This document shows positions 8,358 to 50,584 of a stretch of DNA of 64,000 bases, piece after piece. The position numbers and the translations under genes are program-made. This stretch comes from Arthrobacter citreus (GTDB lineage: Bacteria; Actinomycetota; Actinomycetes; Actinomycetales; Micrococcaceae): positions 2,108,001 through 2,172,000 of the forward strand of contig NZ_CP151657.1 of the NCBI RefSeq assembly GCF_038405225.1, read 5' to 3'. Under the pieces are notes generated by a model. It worked only from the letters and a program-made list of their open reading frames with translations. It searched no databases and was not told the origin of the DNA. The first letter of the stretch is position 1; the number at the start of each line of letters is the position of its first letter.

Positions 8358-9983
8358 CTAGTGGTCCACTGCCTTCTCGGCGCCGACGCCGGTCAGTGAA
8401 CGGACTTCCATCTCCGCCTGCTTCTGCGGGGATTCGTCGTCCTTGCCGACCACGGTTCCCAGCCAGCCCAGGAAGAACGCCAGCGGGATGGAGACCAGGC
8501 CCGGGTTGTTCAGCGGGAAGATGGAGATGTCGATGCCGGACACCATGGACGTCTCGGCCCCGGAGAAGACCGGGGACAGGATGATCAGCAGGATGGCCGA
8601 ACCGAGGCCGCCGTACATGCTCCAGATGGCGCCCTGGGTGTTGAAGCGGCGCCAGTACAGCGAGTACAGGATGGTGGGCAGGTTGGCGCTGGCTGCAACG
8701 GCGAAGGCCAGTGCCACCAGGAACGCCACGTTCTGGCCCTGCGCGCCGATGCCGCCGAGGATGGACACGATACCGATCACGATGACGGTGCGTCGGGCCA
8801 CCTTGACCTCGCCGTCGGCGTCCACCTTGCCCTTGCGGATCACGTTCGCGTAGATGTCATGGGCGAACGATGCGGCGGCAGTGATGGTCAGTCCGGCCAC
8901 CACGGCCAGGATGGTCGCGAATGCCACGGCCGCGATCAGTCCCAGCAGGACCGGCCCGCCGAGGGCGAAGGCCAGCAGCGGAGCCGCGGAGTTCACGCCG
9001 CCCGGAGCTGAGGCGATCGTTTCCGCCGGAATCAGTGCAGCGGCGCCGTAACCCAGGACCAGGGTGAAGAGGTAGAACAGGCCGATCAGCCAAATGGCCC
9101 AGACCACGGAACGGCGGGCTTCCTTGGCGGTGGGCACGGTGTAGAAGCGCATCAGCACGTGCGGCAGTGCCGCGGTGCCCAGCACCAGCGCCATGCCCAG
9201 GGACACGAAGTCCAGACGGGTGGTGCCGCTCTTGCCGTACTGCAGGCCCGGATTCAGGAGCTCGGGGTTGCCCGACGTTTCAACGGCTGCACCCAGCAGC
9301 TCCGACAGGTTGAAGTCGTGCAGGGCAAGGACCCAGACCGTCATGATGGCCGCGCCGGCGATGAGCAGGCAGGCCTTGATGATCTGCACCCAGGTGGTGC
9401 CCTTCATGCCGCCGATGAGTACGTAGATGATCATCAGGCCGCCGACGACGGTGATGACCAGTGACTGGCCAATCTTGGAATCGATGCCCATCAGCAGGGA
9501 AACCAGTCCGCCGGCACCGGCCATCTGGGCCAGCAGGTAGAAGAAACAAACGGCCAGCGTGGTAATCGCCGCGGCGATCCGCACCGGGCGCTGCTTGAGC
9601 CGGAAGGAGAGGACATCGGCCATGGTGAACTTGCCGGTGTTGCGCAGCATTTCCGCCACCAGCAGCAGTGCCACGAGCCAGGCCACCAGGAAGCCGATGG
9701 AGTAGAGGAAGCCGTCGTAGCCGTTGATGGCGATGGCACCGACGATGCCCAGGAAGGATGCCGCCGACAGGTAGTCGCCGGCGATGGCCGTTCCGTTCTG
9801 CGGTCCGGTGAAGGACCGGCCTGCGGCGTAGTAGTCAGCCGCGGTTTTGTTGTTGCGGCTGGCCCGCAGAACGACCACCAGGGTCACCGCCACGAACAGG
9901 CCGAAGATGAGCATGTTCAGCCAGCCGGTTTCCTTGACGGCGTCGGCACTGATGGTCTGGGCCGCAATGTTCAGCGTGTTCAT
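8358..9983 (-). CDS. actP: cation/acetate symporter, sodium:solute symporter family (ActP-like)
   Basis: Inner-membrane sodium:solute symporter, 541 aa, about 13 membrane segments. It carries the ActP-type signatures AADYYAAGRSFTGPQNGTAIAGDYLSAASFLGIVGAIA near residues 48-85 and GTAALPHVLMRFYTVPTAKEARRS mid-protein. Imports acetate or related short-chain monocarboxylates. Its ATG overlaps the stop of the upstream DUF485 gene (ATGA), the classic yjcH-actP pairing. It lies divergent from a LytS-type kinase gene, which probably controls it. Exact substrate (acetate, propionate or pyruvate) is not decided by sequence. Confidence 0.92.
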   Translation of the reverse strand: MNTLNIAAQTISADAVKETGWLNMLIFGLFVAVTLVVVLRASRNNKTAADYYAAGRSFTGPQNGTAIAGDYLSAASFLGIVGAIAINGYDGFLYSIGFLVAWLVALLLVAEMLRNTGKFTMADVLSFRLKQRPVRIAAAITTLAVCFFYLLAQMAGAGGLVSLLMGIDSKIGQSLVITVVGGLMIIYVLIGGMKGTTWVQIIKACLLIAGAAIMTVWVLALHDFNLSELLGAAVETSGNPELLNPGLQYGKSGTTRLDFVSLGMALVLGTAALPHVLMRFYTVPTAKEARRSVVWAIWLIGLFYLFTLVLGYGAAALIPAETIASAPGGVNSAAPLLAFALGGPVLLGLIAAVAFATILAVVAGLTITAAASFAHDIYANVIRKGKVDADGEVKVARRTVIVIGIVSILGGIGAQGQNVAFLVALAFAVAASANLPTILYSLYWRRFNTQGAIWSMYGGLGSAILLIILSPVFSGAETSMVSGIDISIFPLNNPGLVSIPLAFFLGWLGTVVGKDDESPQKQAEMEVRSLTGVGAEKAVDH

Positions 9984-10351
9984 TTGGTCTCCTCCGGACG
10001 GCTGACGCCCTTGGCCTCAAGTTTTTCGCGCAGGCCTGCCGCGATGGGATCCATCCGGCGGTTGGCGTAGCTGACATACCACATGGTGATGCCGAAGGTG
10101 CTGACAAACTGGAGTAGGCCCAGGATCAACCCGACGTTGATGTTCCCCCAGACCGGGGTGGACATGAAGTCGTGCGCATAATCCGCCAGCAGGACGTAGG
10201 CGAAGTACCACAGCAGGAAGACCACTGCCATGGGAAAGATGAAGCTCCGCTGGCGCTTGCGCAGCTCCTGCAGTTCGGGTGATTTTTGGACTTCCGTGAA
10301 GTCGACCGGCGCGGCGTGGGCGCCGGATCCTCGGGGATGATTTTTAGCCAT
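9980..10351 (-). CDS. yjcH: DUF485 family membrane protein (YjcH-like)
   Basis: Small membrane protein, 123 aa, with two hydrophobic segments (FIFPMAVVFLLWYFAYVLLADYA and VGLILGLLQFVSTFGITMWYVSYANRRMDP). It matches the DUF485 family that accompanies acetate symporters; its exact role is unknown but it is nearly always co-encoded with ActP. The start has a strong GGAGGAG site 3-9 nt upstream. Translationally coupled to actP downstream. Confidence 0.9.
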   Translation of the reverse strand: MAKNHPRGSGAHAAPVDFTEVQKSPELQELRKRQRSFIFPMAVVFLLWYFAYVLLADYAHDFMSTPVWGNINVGLILGLLQFVSTFGITMWYVSYANRRMDPIAAGLREKLEAKGVSRPEETK

Positions 10352-32680: not shown

Positions 32681-33853
32681 CTAGCCACCTGAAATGTTGA
32701 GTTCGGCTGCGGAAATGACTGACTTCTGCGCGGCGTTGAGCTCCCGCGATTCCAGCCAGTTTTCCGGCAGTGCGGTCTTCTTGGGGGATCCGGCGCGCCC
32801 GCGGGGGCCTTCGGCGTCGGCACCGGGGTACGGCGCCTCGGGATCCAGCTGGTCCAGCAGTTCGCGCAGGACTTCAAGCGTGGGCACGGTGGCCAGCTGG
32901 GCCCGCAGGTCTCCGCCCACCACGTAGCCCTTGAAGTACCAGGCCATGTGCTTGCGGATGTCGCGCAGGGCCATCATTTCGCCGCCGAAGGTTTCCACCA
33001 GCAGTTCGGCGTGGCGGTACACACTGTCAGACACTTCCTTCAGGCCCGGGCGGTGCCGCAGGTCGCTGCCTTCGAAGGCGGCCTGCAGGTCCCCGAAGAG
33101 CCAGGGCCGGCCCTGGCAGCCGCGGCCGATGACGACGCCGTCGACGCCGGTTTCGCGCACCATGGCGATGGCGTCCTCGGCGGACCAGATGTCGCCGTTG
33201 CCCAGGACCGGGATGTCCGGCAGCGCTTCGCGCAGTTCGGCGATGGCGGACCAGTCGGCTTTGCCGGAGTAGAACTGGGAGGCGGTGCGGCCGTGCAGGG
33301 CGACGGCGGCGACGCCCGAGTCGCGGGCGATCCGGCCGGCGTCCAGGAAGGTCAGGTGGTCCTCGTCGATGCCCTTGCGCATCTTGATGGTCAGCGGGAT
33401 GTTGCCCTTGGAGGCTTCCTTCACCGCGGTCTGCACGATGGCCTTGAACAGGTCCAGCTTCCAGGGCAGGGCCGAGCCGCCGCCCTTGCGGGTGACCTTC
33501 GGAACGGGGCAGCCGAAGTTCAGGTCAATGTGGTCGGCGCGGTCTTCCTCCACAAGGATGCGGATGGCTGCACCGACGGTCACCGGGTCCACGCCGTACA
33601 GCTGGACGGAGCGGACCTTCTCGTCGTCGTCGTGCTCGATGATGCGCAGCGATTCCGGCGAGCGCTCCACGAGGGCGCGGGAGGTGACCATTTCCGTCAC
33701 GTACAGGCCGCCGCCGTATTCGCGGCACAGGCGGCGGAAGGCCTTGTTGGTAATGCCGGCCATGGGAGCCAGGATTACCGGCGTGTCCACGGTGATGGGA
33801 CCCAGCTGCAGCGGGGGCAGCTCGAGCTTGAGTTCTGGGGATGAAACAGTCAC
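32681..33853 (-). CDS. dusB: tRNA-dihydrouridine synthase
   Basis: FMN-dependent reduction of uridines in tRNA; 390 aa. Starts at GTG 33853. Motifs: VILAPMAGITNKAFRRLCREYG (FMN barrel start), VQLYGVDPVTVGAA, DHIDLNFGCPVPKVTRKGGGSAL with the catalytic Cys in NFGCP, TIKMRKGID, and GNGDIWSAEDA. The C-terminal helical tRNA-binding domain has RDIRKHMAWYFKGY. The last ~50 residues are a Pro/Gly-rich extension. First gene of dusB-dgt, 6 nt apart. Confidence 0.95.
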   Translation of the reverse strand: MTVSSPELKLELPPLQLGPITVDTPVILAPMAGITNKAFRRLCREYGGGLYVTEMVTSRALVERSPESLRIIEHDDDEKVRSVQLYGVDPVTVGAAIRILVEEDRADHIDLNFGCPVPKVTRKGGGSALPWKLDLFKAIVQTAVKEASKGNIPLTIKMRKGIDEDHLTFLDAGRIARDSGVAAVALHGRTASQFYSGKADWSAIAELREALPDIPVLGNGDIWSAEDAIAMVRETGVDGVVIGRGCQGRPWLFGDLQAAFEGSDLRHRPGLKEVSDSVYRHAELLVETFGGEMMALRDIRKHMAWYFKGYVVGGDLRAQLATVPTLEVLRELLDQLDPEAPYPGADAEGPRGRAGSPKKTALPENWLESRELNAAQKSVISAAELNISGG

Positions 33854-34061
33854 ACCCCCATTCTCTCAAGCCGGTGCAAATCCTGCTGCGGTTGTGGGTT
33901 CCGCGTCCACGGGCCGTTTTGGTTTGGCCTTATGAGTGTCCTTGGCCTCACCGTTGGAGCTGCTTTGAGGGCTTCCCGGGGAGCTTCCTTGGGGATAATG
34001 CCGCACGGGATGCCGCTGGCGGGGAAGGTTGCGTGGGTTTCACATCCGGACAGCCTTCTCT

Positions 34062-34358
34062 CGTGCAGATAGCGGCCCTTCAGGCTTCCAGATCCGATCC
34101 ATCGTGCAGATAACGGGACTACGGAGAATCCTTCGTGCAGATAACGGGCTCAAAAGCCGGTTTTCGGGCAGTTTGAGCCCCTGATCTGCACTATAGATTT
34201 CCGGAAGGCCCCTGATCTGCACGAAGGATGCTGAGTATCCCCCTGATCTGCACGAAGGATGCCGGGTATCCCCCGATCTGCACGAACGATTCCGGGAAGC
34301 CCCGTTATCTGCACTAGAGATTCCAGGGAAACCCTCTGATCTGCCTGAAGGATGCCCG
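34062..34358. repeat. 31-bp-period inverted repeat array 1
   Basis: Forward units with core CGTGCAGATARCGG start at 34062, 34103 and 34134. Inverted units with core GATCTGCAC start at 34183, 34214, 34245, 34275, 34306 (TATCTGCAC) and 34338 (GATCTGCCT), so spacing is 30-32 bp. Between the two orientations GGGCTCAAA and TTTGAGCCC form a central hairpin (34146-34180). The array as a whole can fold into one long imperfect hairpin. Confidence 0.85.
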
Positions 34359-34570: not shown

Positions 34571-35248
34571 GTGCAACCGGTTATTACAGCGGAAGGCCTC
34601 AGCCTGACCGCCGCCCGGGGTCCCGTCTACGGCCCGCTGAGCTTCGACGTCGACGGCCCCCTCAATGTCCTTTACGGCCCGGCGGGAAGCGGCCGCACCA
34701 GCCTGCTCCTTACACTGGCGGGCCGGATGAAGGCTGAAAACGGCGACCTTGAGGTCCTGGGCCATGCCCTCCCCCGGAACGCCCGGGAGGTCCAGAAGCG
34801 TACGGCCATCGCCGGCTTCACGGACATCGACAGCCTCGAGCCGAGCGTCACCGTTGGGCAGGCGGTCCGGGAACGCCTCGCCTGGCTGGCTCCCTGGTTC
34901 TCCTTCCTCGGCAAGCCCACCGACCGGCAGGTCACCCGCGCCTGCGCACCGGTCTTTGGCGACGCCGAAGTTCCCGCCGCGTCCACCGTGATCTGGAACC
35001 TCGGCGAGGCTGAGCACTTCCTCCTGCGCCTGTCCCTGGCCATGCTCAGCGAACCGAACATCCTCTTTGTTGATGACATCGAACAGGTGCACAGCGCGGA
35101 CGCCCGCCGTCTGGTCTGGGAGCGCCTCGCTGCAATTGCAGCCTCCGGCACCACCGTCGTCGTCGGTGCCGCTTCCCTTGAAACCGGCCTGTGGGAGGGC
35201 CTTGACCCCCAGCCATCCGCGCTGCTGCTCGCACAGGAGACCAACTGA
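34571..35248 (+). CDS. ABC-type ATP-binding protein lacking a normal signature motif
   Basis: 225-aa P-loop protein. Walker A is YGPAGSGRTSLLLTLAG (~36-52). Walker B is EPNILFVDDIEQ, but the usual second acidic residue context is altered. The ABC signature LSGGQ is replaced by NLGEAEH at the expected place. LEPSVTVGQAVRERL corresponds to the Q-loop region. GTG start at 34571 with AAAGG upstream. The stop overlaps the start of the YhgE/Pip membrane protein (TGATG), so it probably energises or regulates that protein. A canonical export ATPase is less certain because of the signature loss. Confidence 0.82.
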   Translation: MQPVITAEGLSLTAARGPVYGPLSFDVDGPLNVLYGPAGSGRTSLLLTLAGRMKAENGDLEVLGHALPRNAREVQKRTAIAGFTDIDSLEPSVTVGQAVRERLAWLAPWFSFLGKPTDRQVTRACAPVFGDAEVPAASTVIWNLGEAEHFLLRLSLAMLSEPNILFVDDIEQVHSADARRLVWERLAAIAASGTTVVVGAASLETGLWEGLDPQPSALLLAQETN

Positions 35249-38087: not shown

Positions 38088-39551
38088 CTATGGCCGGTTC
38101 CGCAGTGAGCGGCGGGTCGGCAGGCCGGAGGCGGCGATACCGCTGTCGGACGGTTGTCCGGCGGAACCCGCAGTGGCGGGCTCGGCGCCGGAGACAGCAT
38201 CGGCTCCGGCAGTGGCGGGCTCGGCGCCGGTGGCAGGAACTGCGCTGCCGGCCGCTCCGGCCTCATTGCCAGCTTCGACGAGCCGGCTTTCCCGGGTGTC
38301 CGGAAGTCCCGGCGCACCCGGAGCCGCCTTGATCCCGACGGCTTTGACCACCAGCACGGCAATGGCCGTGGTTACCGGGATGGCGAGCACCAACCCCACG
38401 GAGCCAACCAGCGTGCGGATGACTTCCTCGGCCAGCTCCCCGCCGGTGAGGCTGTCCAGCAGGGGCCTGTCGTAGAGCGAGACCAGGATGAGCACCGGCA
38501 GGGCCGCCCCGGCGTAGGCGAAGGCAATGGTGTAGACGGTGGAGGCAATGTGGTCCCGGCCCACCCGCATCGCGCCGGAAAAGAGCCGCTTCGCGCTGGC
38601 GCCGGGAGCCAGTTCGTACATTTCCCAGACGGCGGAGGACTGGGTGATGGTGACGTCATTGAGCACACCCAGGCCGGAGATGATCAACCCGCAGAGGATG
38701 ATGCCCGAGACCGATATGCTCTCGGACGAGTTGATGAGCGTGTACGCATTTTCGTCGTCGACCCCCACCAGGTGCGCGGCGTCGGTGGCCCACGCCGCCA
38801 GGCACGCGGTGATCGACAGCCCGAACAGTGTCCCCAGCAGTGCTGTGGAGGTCCGGGCCGTGAAGCCGTGGGCAAAGTACAGCACCCCGAACATGATCAC
38901 GCTGGACCCCACCAGTCCGAGCAGCAGCGGCGGCTGCCCCTCCACCAGCCCGGGCAGGATGAAGCCGGCCAGCACCGCGTAGGCTCCGGCCAGCCCCACC
39001 AGTGCGCGCAGTCCGCGCCAGCGTGCGACGGCGATGACCACTCCCGCATACAGCACGGTCAGCGCCGCCATCGGCACGGACCGGACGAAGTCCACGAAGA
39101 CATAGGGCGGGGCTCCCCCGCCGTCCTGCATCACGGCTTCCAGGTTCAGGTAGCGGATGCTGTCTCCGGCCTCGATGGCATCACCCTTGGCCACCTCCGG
39201 CGGAACTTCCACTTGGATGGTGGGTCCCCCAGCGTTGGGAACCGTGTAGGCAACCAGGCACTGCTGGGCCGTTCCCCCCGCTTCGACAAGCGCGGCCGAG
39301 GACGGGCAGTCCTCCTGGCTGACCCGCTGGACCTTGCCGGTGTCGAAGGTAACTCCGTCGGCAGTGGCGTAGGGATCGGCAACGGTGACACTGGAGCGGT
39401 CCCCGGAGGGCCACATCAACAGCATTGCCACCACGGCCAGCAGACCCAGTGGCACCAGGATGGCGGTCAGCAGCAGGTTGGCGCGACGTCGGGCGGCCAG
39501 GGCAACCAGAGACGGCGGCTCATCGGAGTGCGGGGAATGGCTGTGTCCCAT
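38088..39551 (-). CDS. YibE/F family membrane protein
   Basis: 487 aa, about eight membrane helices. A His/Ser-rich N-terminus (HSHSPHSDEP) precedes helix 1 (NLLLTAILVPLGLLAVVAMLLMW). An extracytoplasmic domain includes a Cys pair (EDCPSSAALVEAGGTAQQCLV). The multi-helix YibE/F core follows, with GVLNDVTITQSSAVWEMYELAP and FAYAGAALPVLILVSLYDRP typical of the family. The C-terminal ~70 residues are Ala/Gly/Thr-rich repeats. Function unknown in general. Convergent with the TetR gene. Confidence 0.9.
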   Translation of the reverse strand: MGHSHSPHSDEPPSLVALAARRRANLLLTAILVPLGLLAVVAMLLMWPSGDRSSVTVADPYATADGVTFDTGKVQRVSQEDCPSSAALVEAGGTAQQCLVAYTVPNAGGPTIQVEVPPEVAKGDAIEAGDSIRYLNLEAVMQDGGGAPPYVFVDFVRSVPMAALTVLYAGVVIAVARWRGLRALVGLAGAYAVLAGFILPGLVEGQPPLLLGLVGSSVIMFGVLYFAHGFTARTSTALLGTLFGLSITACLAAWATDAAHLVGVDDENAYTLINSSESISVSGIILCGLIISGLGVLNDVTITQSSAVWEMYELAPGASAKRLFSGAMRVGRDHIASTVYTIAFAYAGAALPVLILVSLYDRPLLDSLTGGELAEEVIRTLVGSVGLVLAIPVTTAIAVLVVKAVGIKAAPGAPGLPDTRESRLVEAGNEAGAAGSAVPATGAEPATAGADAVSGAEPATAGSAGQPSDSGIAASGLPTRRSLRNRP

Positions 39552-40117
39552 GGGGTCCTTTGGCGGTGGCAGGGCGCTGCAGCCCGGATAATACGGATGC
39601 AGGAAACACGGTCGGCATCATTGTCCCAAGCCCGGCGCCAATGTCCCAAAAACTGTGCGGCCGGCCGGGCTGTCAGGCCTGTCAGGCCGGGAAGTCAGGG
39701 GCCGGGAAGTCAGGGGCCGGGCCTTATTTACGTCCGACCGCCGGGTTCTCCACCGATCCATCGTGCAGATAACGGGGCATCCCGGCATCTCTCGTGCAGA
39801 TAACGGGGTATCCCGGCATCTCTCGTACAGATAGCGGGGTATCCCGGCATCTCTCGTGCAGATAGCGGGCTCAAAACCTCGAAATTCGGGGTTTTGGTCC
39901 CCTGATCTGCACAAAGGATTCTTTGATTGCCCGTGATCTGTGCGAGAGATCCGCCAGCAGTGCCGGCAGCAGGAGCCGGACGGATGAAACGCCCGCATAA
40001 ACGCCGACGACGGCGGGCGCTGAATCCCCCAAAGGAACCCGCACCCGCCGCCGTCGCAAATCACGCAGCCGCAGCTGTCCGTCATCCACAGCCTTAAGAG
40101 CCAGGCGACCGAAGGAC
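39552..40117. other. 566-bp non-coding region with repeat array 2
   Basis: No supported gene. The centre (about 39762-39945) is occupied by the second 31-bp-period array. GTCAGGCC/GGGAAGTCAGGGGCC short tandem repeats occur at about 39670-39720. The remainder is unremarkable and includes the YibE/F promoter side. Confidence 0.8.
39762..39946. repeat. 31-bp-period inverted repeat array 2
   Basis: Forward units start at 39762, 39793, 39824 and 39855, exactly 31 bp apart; the first three agree over nearly the full 31 bp (core CGTGCAGATAACGGGG, then ATCCCGGCATCTCT). Inverted units follow at 39904 and 39935, again 31 bp apart. Between them CTCAAAACC and GGTTTTG form a central hairpin. Same architecture and core as array 1 at 34062-34358. 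Confidence 0.88.
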
Positions 40118-41026
40118 CTACGTGCTGACGATCTCCGTGGCCGGCCCAACTTCGCGGGCGGCACCCTTTTCCAGCAGGGCCTGGATGATCCGGGCCACCG
40201 GTTTCATGGATTCGTCCACCTCCAGCTGGATCGGATACTGATAGGTCAGCAGGGCCAGCAGCGATTCGAGCGCCGCCTCCTGTTCCGACTGTTCCAGCGA
40301 AGGATCATAGCCAAGGAACACGTCGGCCGGCTCATCCGTGCGGTTCTGCGTATAGCTCACGGCGAAGGCAGCGATCTTGCCGCCCTGTGACTTGGGCGCA
40401 TCGCGCAGGACCACCGCTCCGGCGGCGCCGGTGGCGTCGTTGAGCAGCATCTGCTGCGCCCGTCCGAGCGTCATCTCCGACCGGTCCCAGCCGTGCACGG
40501 CGTTGTAGAACTCCACCACGGCCTGGGTCAGTTCCACCGAGCCGGTGGCGGCCTCGTCCAGCTGCGGTCCGGCGTCGTCCTGGAAGACCGGAAGGGTGAT
40601 CCGCCCGGGCTCCACCACAACCACGCGGGACCGCTGGATCCGGGAGAAACCGGCAGCCTCGGCGAAGGCAGCACCGGAGGTTCCCGGCTCCACCTTCGCG
40701 CGCATGGCGGTAACGCCCGACGGCGCCGCTTCGGCTTCCCTCCGCAGCATCGCCAGCAGCGTGGATCCGAGGCCGGCGCGCCGGTTTTCCCGGGCCACTT
40801 CCACGTAAACCCACAGCCGGTCCGGGTGCAGCGATGTCTCGTAAACGACGCCGGCAGCTACCGGAATACCGTCGTCTTCGGCCACGATGCAGCGGCTCCA
40901 CGGCTCGTTGGACGAGGGCCGCAGGACTGCCCGGAACTGGCCGGACTGCACCGTTTCCGGATCGCCCCACAGCTGGTTCAGGGCCAGGTCGTCATCTTCG
41001 CGCCATTCGCGGAACGTCAAGGCCAT
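40118..41026 (-). CDS. GNAT family N-acetyltransferase, two-lobed
   Basis: 302 aa, twice the usual single-domain length. The N-terminal GNAT lobe is intact: RLWVYVEVARENRRAGLGSTLLAMLRREAEA (acetyl-CoA loop R-x-x-G-x-G-S near 82-90) and FAEAAGFSRIQRSRV. The C-terminal lobe is degenerate, with FAVSYTQNRTDEPADVFLGYDPSLEQSEQEAALESLLALL resembling a motif A without its glycine loop. Substrate unknown. The ATG overlaps the glyS stop (TAATG), giving co-translation with GlyRS. Confidence 0.85.
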   Translation of the reverse strand: MALTFREWREDDDLALNQLWGDPETVQSGQFRAVLRPSSNEPWSRCIVAEDDGIPVAAGVVYETSLHPDRLWVYVEVARENRRAGLGSTLLAMLRREAEAAPSGVTAMRAKVEPGTSGAAFAEAAGFSRIQRSRVVVVEPGRITLPVFQDDAGPQLDEAATGSVELTQAVVEFYNAVHGWDRSEMTLGRAQQMLLNDATGAAGAVVLRDAPKSQGGKIAAFAVSYTQNRTDEPADVFLGYDPSLEQSEQEAALESLLALLTYQYPIQLEVDESMKPVARIIQALLEKGAAREVGPATEIVST

Positions 41027-50467: not shown

Positions 50468-50584
50468 GACCCGCGCTTGCCGCACGTCCTTTTGACGTGC
50501 AGCCAGGTCTTCACCCGGGGCACCCCACCGCGGTTGGAGGGTTGCCGGCCAGCAAGCCGGGGCTATCTGCTGGCACTCATGACC
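50468..50584 (-). ncRNA. SAM-IV riboswitch in the metYX leader
   Basis: The minus-strand RNA matches the SAM-IV consensus closely: GGTCATGAGTGCCAGC, the GCCCCGGCTTGCTGGCC core, GGCAACCCTCCAACCGCGG, TGGGGTGCCCCGGGTGA, the closing AGACC, a variable hairpin (GCACGTC/GACGTGC) and the pseudoknot tail GGCAAGCGCGGGTC. It lies 68 nt before the metY start. S-adenosylmethionine binding would reduce metYX expression. Confidence 0.93.

Follow-up and report, generated by a model that had tools for sequence, protein, structure and literature searches.

Iteron and centromere arrays are direct repeats, phased with the helix, onto which a DNA-binding protein loads, and I-shaped (tail-less) intrinsic terminators exist in actinobacteria. 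REP sequences are extragenic palindromes whose stem is by definition 5–13 bp long, according to passages of PMC3733652, and known BIMEs bind IHF or gyrase, as excerpts of PMC2817692 report, which provides a precedent for a protein-bound array. The stretch of the Arthrobacter citreus chromosome analysed here (the window, 64,000 nucleotides) contains an array of 31-bp periodicity that a preliminary description, made from the letters alone, considered to fit no known feature class. This proves too strong, as REP/BIME-type interspersed palindromes come close, though the features that define a REP are not present. The array element was not found described in the literature searched, as judged by titles, abstract openings and passages; Arthrobacter livingstonensis is named once in passages of PMC12306157, where a table lists genome and REP statistics for it. 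We propose that the array belongs to a dispersed, BIME-like set of Micrococcaceae extragenic palindromes, expanded in Arthrobacter into multi-site arrays for a putative sequence-specific DNA-binding protein, a proposal to which we give an even chance of being right.

The array consists of direct units that lead up to a central palindrome and of inverted units that lead away from it, between the following features:

39756–39950, no strand: whole array, four forward units, central palindrome and two inverted units (steps 31, 31, 31, 57-bp centre, 31)
39756–39776, plus strand: forward unit 1, 21 bp, with core GTGCAGAT at 39763 (core matching)
39787–39807, plus strand: forward unit 2 (core matching)
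39818–39838, plus strand: forward unit 3, GTACAGAT variant (core matching)
39849–39869, plus strand: forward unit 4, the left arm of the centre (core matching and centre pattern)
39849–39919, no strand: central palindrome of 71 bp, measuring 57 bp from the start of one core to the end of the other and matching covariance model R1
39899–39919, minus strand: inverted unit 1, the right arm of the centre (centre pattern)
39930–39950, minus strand: inverted unit 2, with degenerate core ATCTGTGC (from the sequence)
38088–39551, minus strand: yibE/F-type neighbour gene, 487 aa (name assigned by eye), its start 204 bp from the array
40118–41026, minus strand: neighbour gene with a GNAT acetyltransferase domain, its 3′ end facing the array

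The forward units had been described as exactly 31 bp apart, and their starts at 39762, 39793, 39824 and 39855 bear this out; the two inverted units do share the period (ATCTGCAC at 39905–39912 and ATCTGTGC at 39936–39943, 31 bp apart), and the central hairpin placed between the two orientations corresponds to the 71-bp palindrome. Tandem Repeats Finder reports a period of 31 with 3.5 copies and 94% matches, units of one arm are 81% alike over 62 nt, and the stretch 39740–39960 has a fold z of −8.8. Directly beside the array, at 39685–39721, GGCCGGGAAGTCAGG is repeated perfectly in tandem with a 15-bp period (2.5 copies).

The same window carries a second array of this family that the preliminary description did not mention:

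34056–34345, no strand: sister array, three forward units (steps 41, 31), 57-bp centre and five inverted units (steps 31, 31, 30, 31) (core matching)
34128–34198, no strand: centre of the sister array, a palindrome of 71 bp (centre pattern and model)
32681–33853, minus strand: neighbour gene, dihydrouridine synthase (Dus) (domain scan)
34571–35248, plus strand: neighbour gene with an ABC transporter ATPase domain (domain scan)

This array is larger on its inverted side, where a degenerate sixth unit is seen by eye at 34338, and its left and right outer steps are unequal (41 vs 31). With up to three mismatches the core is matched 10 times in the window (four times in the first array and six in the sister array) against 0.76 expected, a count that none of 100 shuffles reaches.

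Both arrays are members of a genome-wide family. In the own genome (G000, a single contig of 3.88 Mb), GTGCAGATNNNGGG is matched exactly at 121 places and the reversed-reading pattern at none. Covariance model R1 was built from an alignment (A1) of 43 centres, 25 of them from the own genome and 18 from relatives, which takes in 25 of the 30 own centres and excludes two matches judged by eye to be chance (L103, a Lysobacterales MAG, and L106, Mucilaginibacter). On the own genome R1 finds these 30 palindromic centres (60 strand-matches) at 24 intergenic loci, 22 of them outside the window; the locus table was cleared of a further, 25th row that consisted of two weak matches lying over a gene. 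All 24 loci are extragenic; at two of them an outermost weak unit overlaps the end of a gene by as much as 47 bp. With genes called by simple codon usage, nine loci lie between convergent genes, 13 between co-directional and two between divergent ones; divergent gaps thus account for 2/24 own array loci and 8/79 genus array loci vs 20/54 long array-free gaps of the own genome. Thirteen of the 24 loci fall within 0.56 Mb (1.78–2.33 Mb, with the window inside), a clustering as tight as which arose in 7 of 20000 random placements. Nineteen skew samples of 3 kb gave no clear pattern of origin–terminus polarity, and by eye no dnaA was found upstream of the topoisomerase gene among ORFs of 250 aa or more.

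Scanning of 30 of the 48 flanking proteins revealed metabolic, transport, regulatory and housekeeping genes, with no transposase and no replication initiator or partition gene among these 30. A regulon was considered and rejected, as the same 30 proteins (encoded by proC, trkA, serA, thyA, hisD, argH, ctaA, galK, dusB, the topoisomerase A subunit gene and others, short names being our interpretation of Pfam matches) show no evident common pathway. A recurrent neighbour as partner was likewise set aside: 222 flanking proteins fell mainly into clusters of orthologous neighbourhoods, and the most varied cluster (four members, three partner classes) is a near-identical membrane permease-like protein in four species, which we read as an orthologous site.

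Beyond the own genome, the exact centre pattern occurs in 6 of 295 family genomes (own included), every one of the own genus. Named matches are Arthrobacter gandavensis, whose strain JCM 13316 is a relative with the same spelling, and Arthrobacter sp. APC 3897; two records outside the family were judged chance by eye. R1 matches 23/29 genus genomes at E 0.01 (own included). A second model, R2, built from an alignment (A2) of 14 centres of differing spelling, matches 28/29 genus genomes at 1e-5 (own included; 0 to 52 strand-matches per genome), 40/149 family genomes at 1e-6, in 13 of the 32 sampled Micrococcaceae genera (own included), and 11/297 order genomes at 1e-8 (6 of 94 genera), nine of these in the family and two in one other family, where each has a single match with a palindrome that looks similar by eye; the E-values of both models are rough. 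The preliminary description had named absence of the unit elsewhere, or its occurrence without period and orientation switch, as the mark of a local tandem duplication. This test has now been run, and the observation withstood it.

Across these genomes the core is spelled GTGCAG, GTACAG, GAGCAG, GGGCAG or GGGGAG, the outer 7 bp also varies, and more than one spelling coexists within G299 and within G004. Another hairpin, TTCATAGTGCAGTAG...CTACTGCACTATGAA, which has the GTGCAG core, stands left or right of the centre in several species (L116, L117, L119, L120) and may be a sister family of the arrays. Another GTGCAG-containing word (e.g. GCCGCCATACCTGCAC) occurs in copies close to arrays at L111, L135 and L137, and is possibly a further related family.

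Within the genus, the arrays follow a spacing rule. A loose scan of seven sets of genus loci, background matches included, shows unit steps piling up at 31, 41–42 and 51–52 bp, and inverted core distances at 34 and 44. A similarity filter and removal of duplicates leave 261 distinct direct steps of 25 to 60 bp, of which 253 measure 30–32, 40–42 or 51–53 bp. Grouping the spacers into families less than 70% alike leaves 105 of 113 on this grid (binomial p about 3e-53 against 9/36, the families not being strictly independent). Palindromes of the genus span 47 bp in 41 and 57 bp in 29 of 78 loop families, and the difference of 10 bp is one turn of B-DNA. The quantised steps and spans are consistent with a B-DNA ruler, a Rayleigh measure giving no distinction between periods of 10, 10.5 and 11. 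Helical phasing, suggested before from the 31-bp step, is therefore well supported within the genus, where the 31/41/52 steps and 47/57 spans recur with unlike spacers in several species. Length locking could in part reflect descent with few indels; however, step lengths differ between species at the same genes and yet stay on the grid, which counts against descent alone. On the 5′ side of yibE/F, for example, the step is 31 in the own genome, 41 in G013 and 52 and 42 in G004, and steps on the ctaA side are 31 or 41–42 across species.

Steps of whole helical turns, with the spacer sequence free to vary, are characteristic of proteins bound on one face of the DNA, and for this reason we favour a sequence-specific DNA-binding protein, although none has been found. 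One site would be each unit of 15–21 bp, conserved about G-N2-CAG-N-T-N-A-N-G, with a 7-bp outer part spelled by species. Starting from a central inverted pair, further units would be added on the outside at three, four or five helical turns, such that the bound proteins would lie on one helix face, able to touch each other, and the inverted pair may allow two protein rows to meet or fold back. The resulting nucleoprotein complex may form a boundary (a transcription roadblock, or an anchor of supercoils or of chromosome organisation) rather than serve as a promoter switch, as is suggested by the scarcity of arrays between divergent genes and by the gene-end position of the element in other genera. 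If this protein reads the dialects, the presence of more than one spelling within G299 and G004 means that either a tolerant reader or several readers would be needed.

The pairing of the arms bears directly on a first serious rival, in which the element acts as RNA, a strong and often bidirectional hairpin that ends (convergent) transcripts or protects their 3′ ends, the tandem units being by-products; we regard this as unlikely. In other genera the element mainly takes the form of one 61-bp palindrome, two examples of which have predicted fold energies of −42.6 and −62.9 kcal/mol (−36.6 kcal/mol for the centre of the window array), and it lies a median of 11 bp from the nearest stop codon (28/31 within 25 bp), with 21 of 31 between convergent and none between divergent genes. 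Its stems covary strongly. In one alignment from these genera (A3) 98.1% of cells are paired and 14 of 28 pairs have double changes, with two-sided changes in 58 cells, one-sided changes in 5 and no pairing in 8, as two opposite transcripts would demand; in a second (A4) 91.8% of cells are paired, with double changes in 9 of 28 pairs. That these stems stay complementary locus by locus, as a hairpin needs, also counts against the protein-bound reading. Across species, A2 likewise shows strong covariation of the arms (double changes in 18 of 25 pairs; score 0.385 vs 0.163 shuffled).

Against a role as RNA, centres in Arthrobacter stand a median of 149 bp from the nearest stop codon, with 3 of 71 within 25 bp (outer units add to this distance), and of 79 loci 29 are convergent, 42 co-directional and 8 divergent. 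These positions derive from 161 loci, of which 49 without a centre and two without one flank were dropped and 110 kept, one site (L123/L213) being counted twice. No T-run (Rho-independent) terminator was found by a simple scan of 39540–40130, or at other loci by eye only. The conserved primary sequence exceeds what a terminator needs, the arms are mismatched, and a hairpin leaves the 31/41/52 rule for direct units unexplained. Covariation in A1, the GTGCAG type, is small (0.118 vs 0.094, although above all 500 shuffles), and its columns 16/56, 18/54 and 5/67 are unpaired in 35, 36 and 25 of 43 rows, the first two counts being biased because rows were oriented on those columns. The one long, regular transcript hairpin offered earlier as an alternative is weaker here: the two arms differ (16/56 and 18/54 mostly unpaired, with the bias just stated) and the outer steps of the sister array are unequal. 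In the GTGCAG type, columns 16–18 and 54–56 tend to carry different triplets on the two arms (AAC vs CAG), so that the centre has a direction, a tendency that the 47-bp type does not evidently share.

Rfam gave no gathering-level match at either window array and, at 20 further loci, only one tRNA; two miRNA matches fell below threshold. Elsewhere in the window, an ordinary SAM-IV riboswitch lies at 50468–50584 (minus strand).

Arms of the same centre are 0.823 alike in Arthrobacter (n = 76) vs 0.784 for arms of different sites, compared with 0.959 vs 0.858 in other genera. Since the A1 arms are loosely complementary, and own arms only slightly more alike than others, spacing appears to be kept more strictly than pairing in Arthrobacter. 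We infer that the older form was a gene-end palindrome, which Arthrobacter made into a multi-site array.

A second serious rival, which we hold to be improbable, takes the element for a REP/REPIN or MITE-like repeat, non-autonomous and multiplied by an unrecognised transposase, which the dialects would follow and whose complex would set the spacing. The dispersed, genome-specific families, more than one in some genomes and with the wide range of copy number given above for the 29 genus genomes, are what such a repeat would produce, as are the duplicated modules among the arrays (L063, L065, L070 and L174, clearly so for L065 and L070). Arm identities point the same way, averaging 0.803 between different sites in one genome (525 pairs), 0.724 between orthologous sites in different species (45 pairs) and 0.706 between different sites in different species (2471 pairs). 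Copies within one genome are thus more alike than orthologous sites, and the picture is mixed: spellings at shared sites mostly differ by species, and within one orthologous set the spelling is retained, with an identity of 0.90.

The shared sites themselves argue against mobility. BLAST of flanks, together with clustering of the proteins encoded there, finds arrays next to shared genes in several species: beside maf in G000, G010, G018, G012, G009 and G008; beside ctaA in G000, G010, G003, G299, G008, G011 and G004; beside argH in G000, G004, G010 and, in another genus, G100; and in the proC–trkA gap in two genera (G000, G007 and G286, with G100 again from the other genus). In the near relative G010 the array is missing at four sites, where the alignment shows no target duplication and, at one, a fairly clean presence/absence together with extra flanking DNA. 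At L312 of the same genome (about 9966–10076) the place of the own genome's L075 array is taken by an unrelated palindrome with TTTTGGGAC arms. A search for the RAYT domain (Y1 transposase, PF01797) was negative in the own genome (0/1) and in 17 further genomes (0/17), controls being positive in 5 of 14 known genomes; with no PF01797 in these 18 genomes and no transposase among the 30 neighbours scanned, a RAYT link was rejected. The exact centre pattern has no match in viral contigs and the sister array none in plasmids or phages, so a phage or plasmid origin was rejected as well.

Finally, a functionless local tandem duplication, in which the 31-bp period is simply the length of the duplicated piece, would account for the likeness of units within an arm and for the modules at L065 and L070 but is hardly credible and refuted as a full explanation by the 121 exact units in the genome, the related centres in 28/29 genus genomes and the recurrence of the same steps with unlike spacers.

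For the protein-bound reading, a weak candidate partner is the DUF559 protein encoded at the maf site, which we take to have a Vsr-like nuclease fold. Its gene (L077:2797–3618, minus strand) is convergent with maf, and the array lies between the two. DUF559 shows 58–84% amino acid identity among species over its length vs 80–99% for Maf, with only a fragment matched in G012 (L128); in excerpts of PMC2817692, rayt genes are likewise said to evolve fast relative to their neighbours. A tblastn search of the fetched loci with DUF559 yielded one further match, at L307, in another genus and in the other orientation, and a link to other arrays is thus unsupported.

Extragenic palindromes are usually accounted for by RAYT transposases or by terminators, and here a family in 13 of 32 sampled genera of the Micrococcaceae has no RAYT in the 18 genomes tested; it shows spelling dialects beside the same genes and, in one genus, a whole-turn spacing rule. 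A wider proposal, which we put forward tentatively and hold to be possible rather than probable, is that the family represents a RAYT-independent interspersed class defined by a DNA helical ruler, in which gene-end palindromes would be read by a co-evolving putative protein and the one-faced rows of Arthrobacter would serve as chromosomal boundaries. It is now testable which protein reads the arrays and whether selection keeps helical phasing rather than a hairpin.

Compared with known systems, the family resembles REP/REPIN elements with a RAYT, as described in the passages seen of PMC3733652 and PMC2817692, in being short, extragenic and palindromic, in a spelling particular to each species, in complementary changes of the stems and in its preference for positions downstream of genes (24/24 own loci intergenic and 2/24 divergent; 0/31 divergent in other genera). 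It is unlike them in that no RAYT was found, in stems of up to 28 bp that exceed the 5–13 bp of a REP, in the lack of an unpaired GTAG or CGTC tag, as judged by eye in alignments and printed flanks, and in its fixed helical-turn spacing.

The palindromes of other genera are similar to I-shaped terminators, being long hairpins without an evident T-run just past stop codons, often between convergent genes; they differ in a primary sequence common to the copies of a genome, and the Arthrobacter multi-unit arrays differ further in having centres far from stops. With iteron and centromere arrays the family shares direct repeats in helical phase, but it occupies two dozen dispersed chromosomal loci and is inverted at a palindrome. 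BIME-1 and BIME-2, for which binding of IHF, gyrase or Pol I is characteristic, are like the arrays in being extragenic clusters of palindromic units in both orientations with intervening segments. Whereas the segments between REPs in Stenotrophomonas BIMEs vary substantially in length, as an excerpt of PMC2817692 states, the step length here is locked, and orientation is uniform on either side of a module's centre, where it switches.
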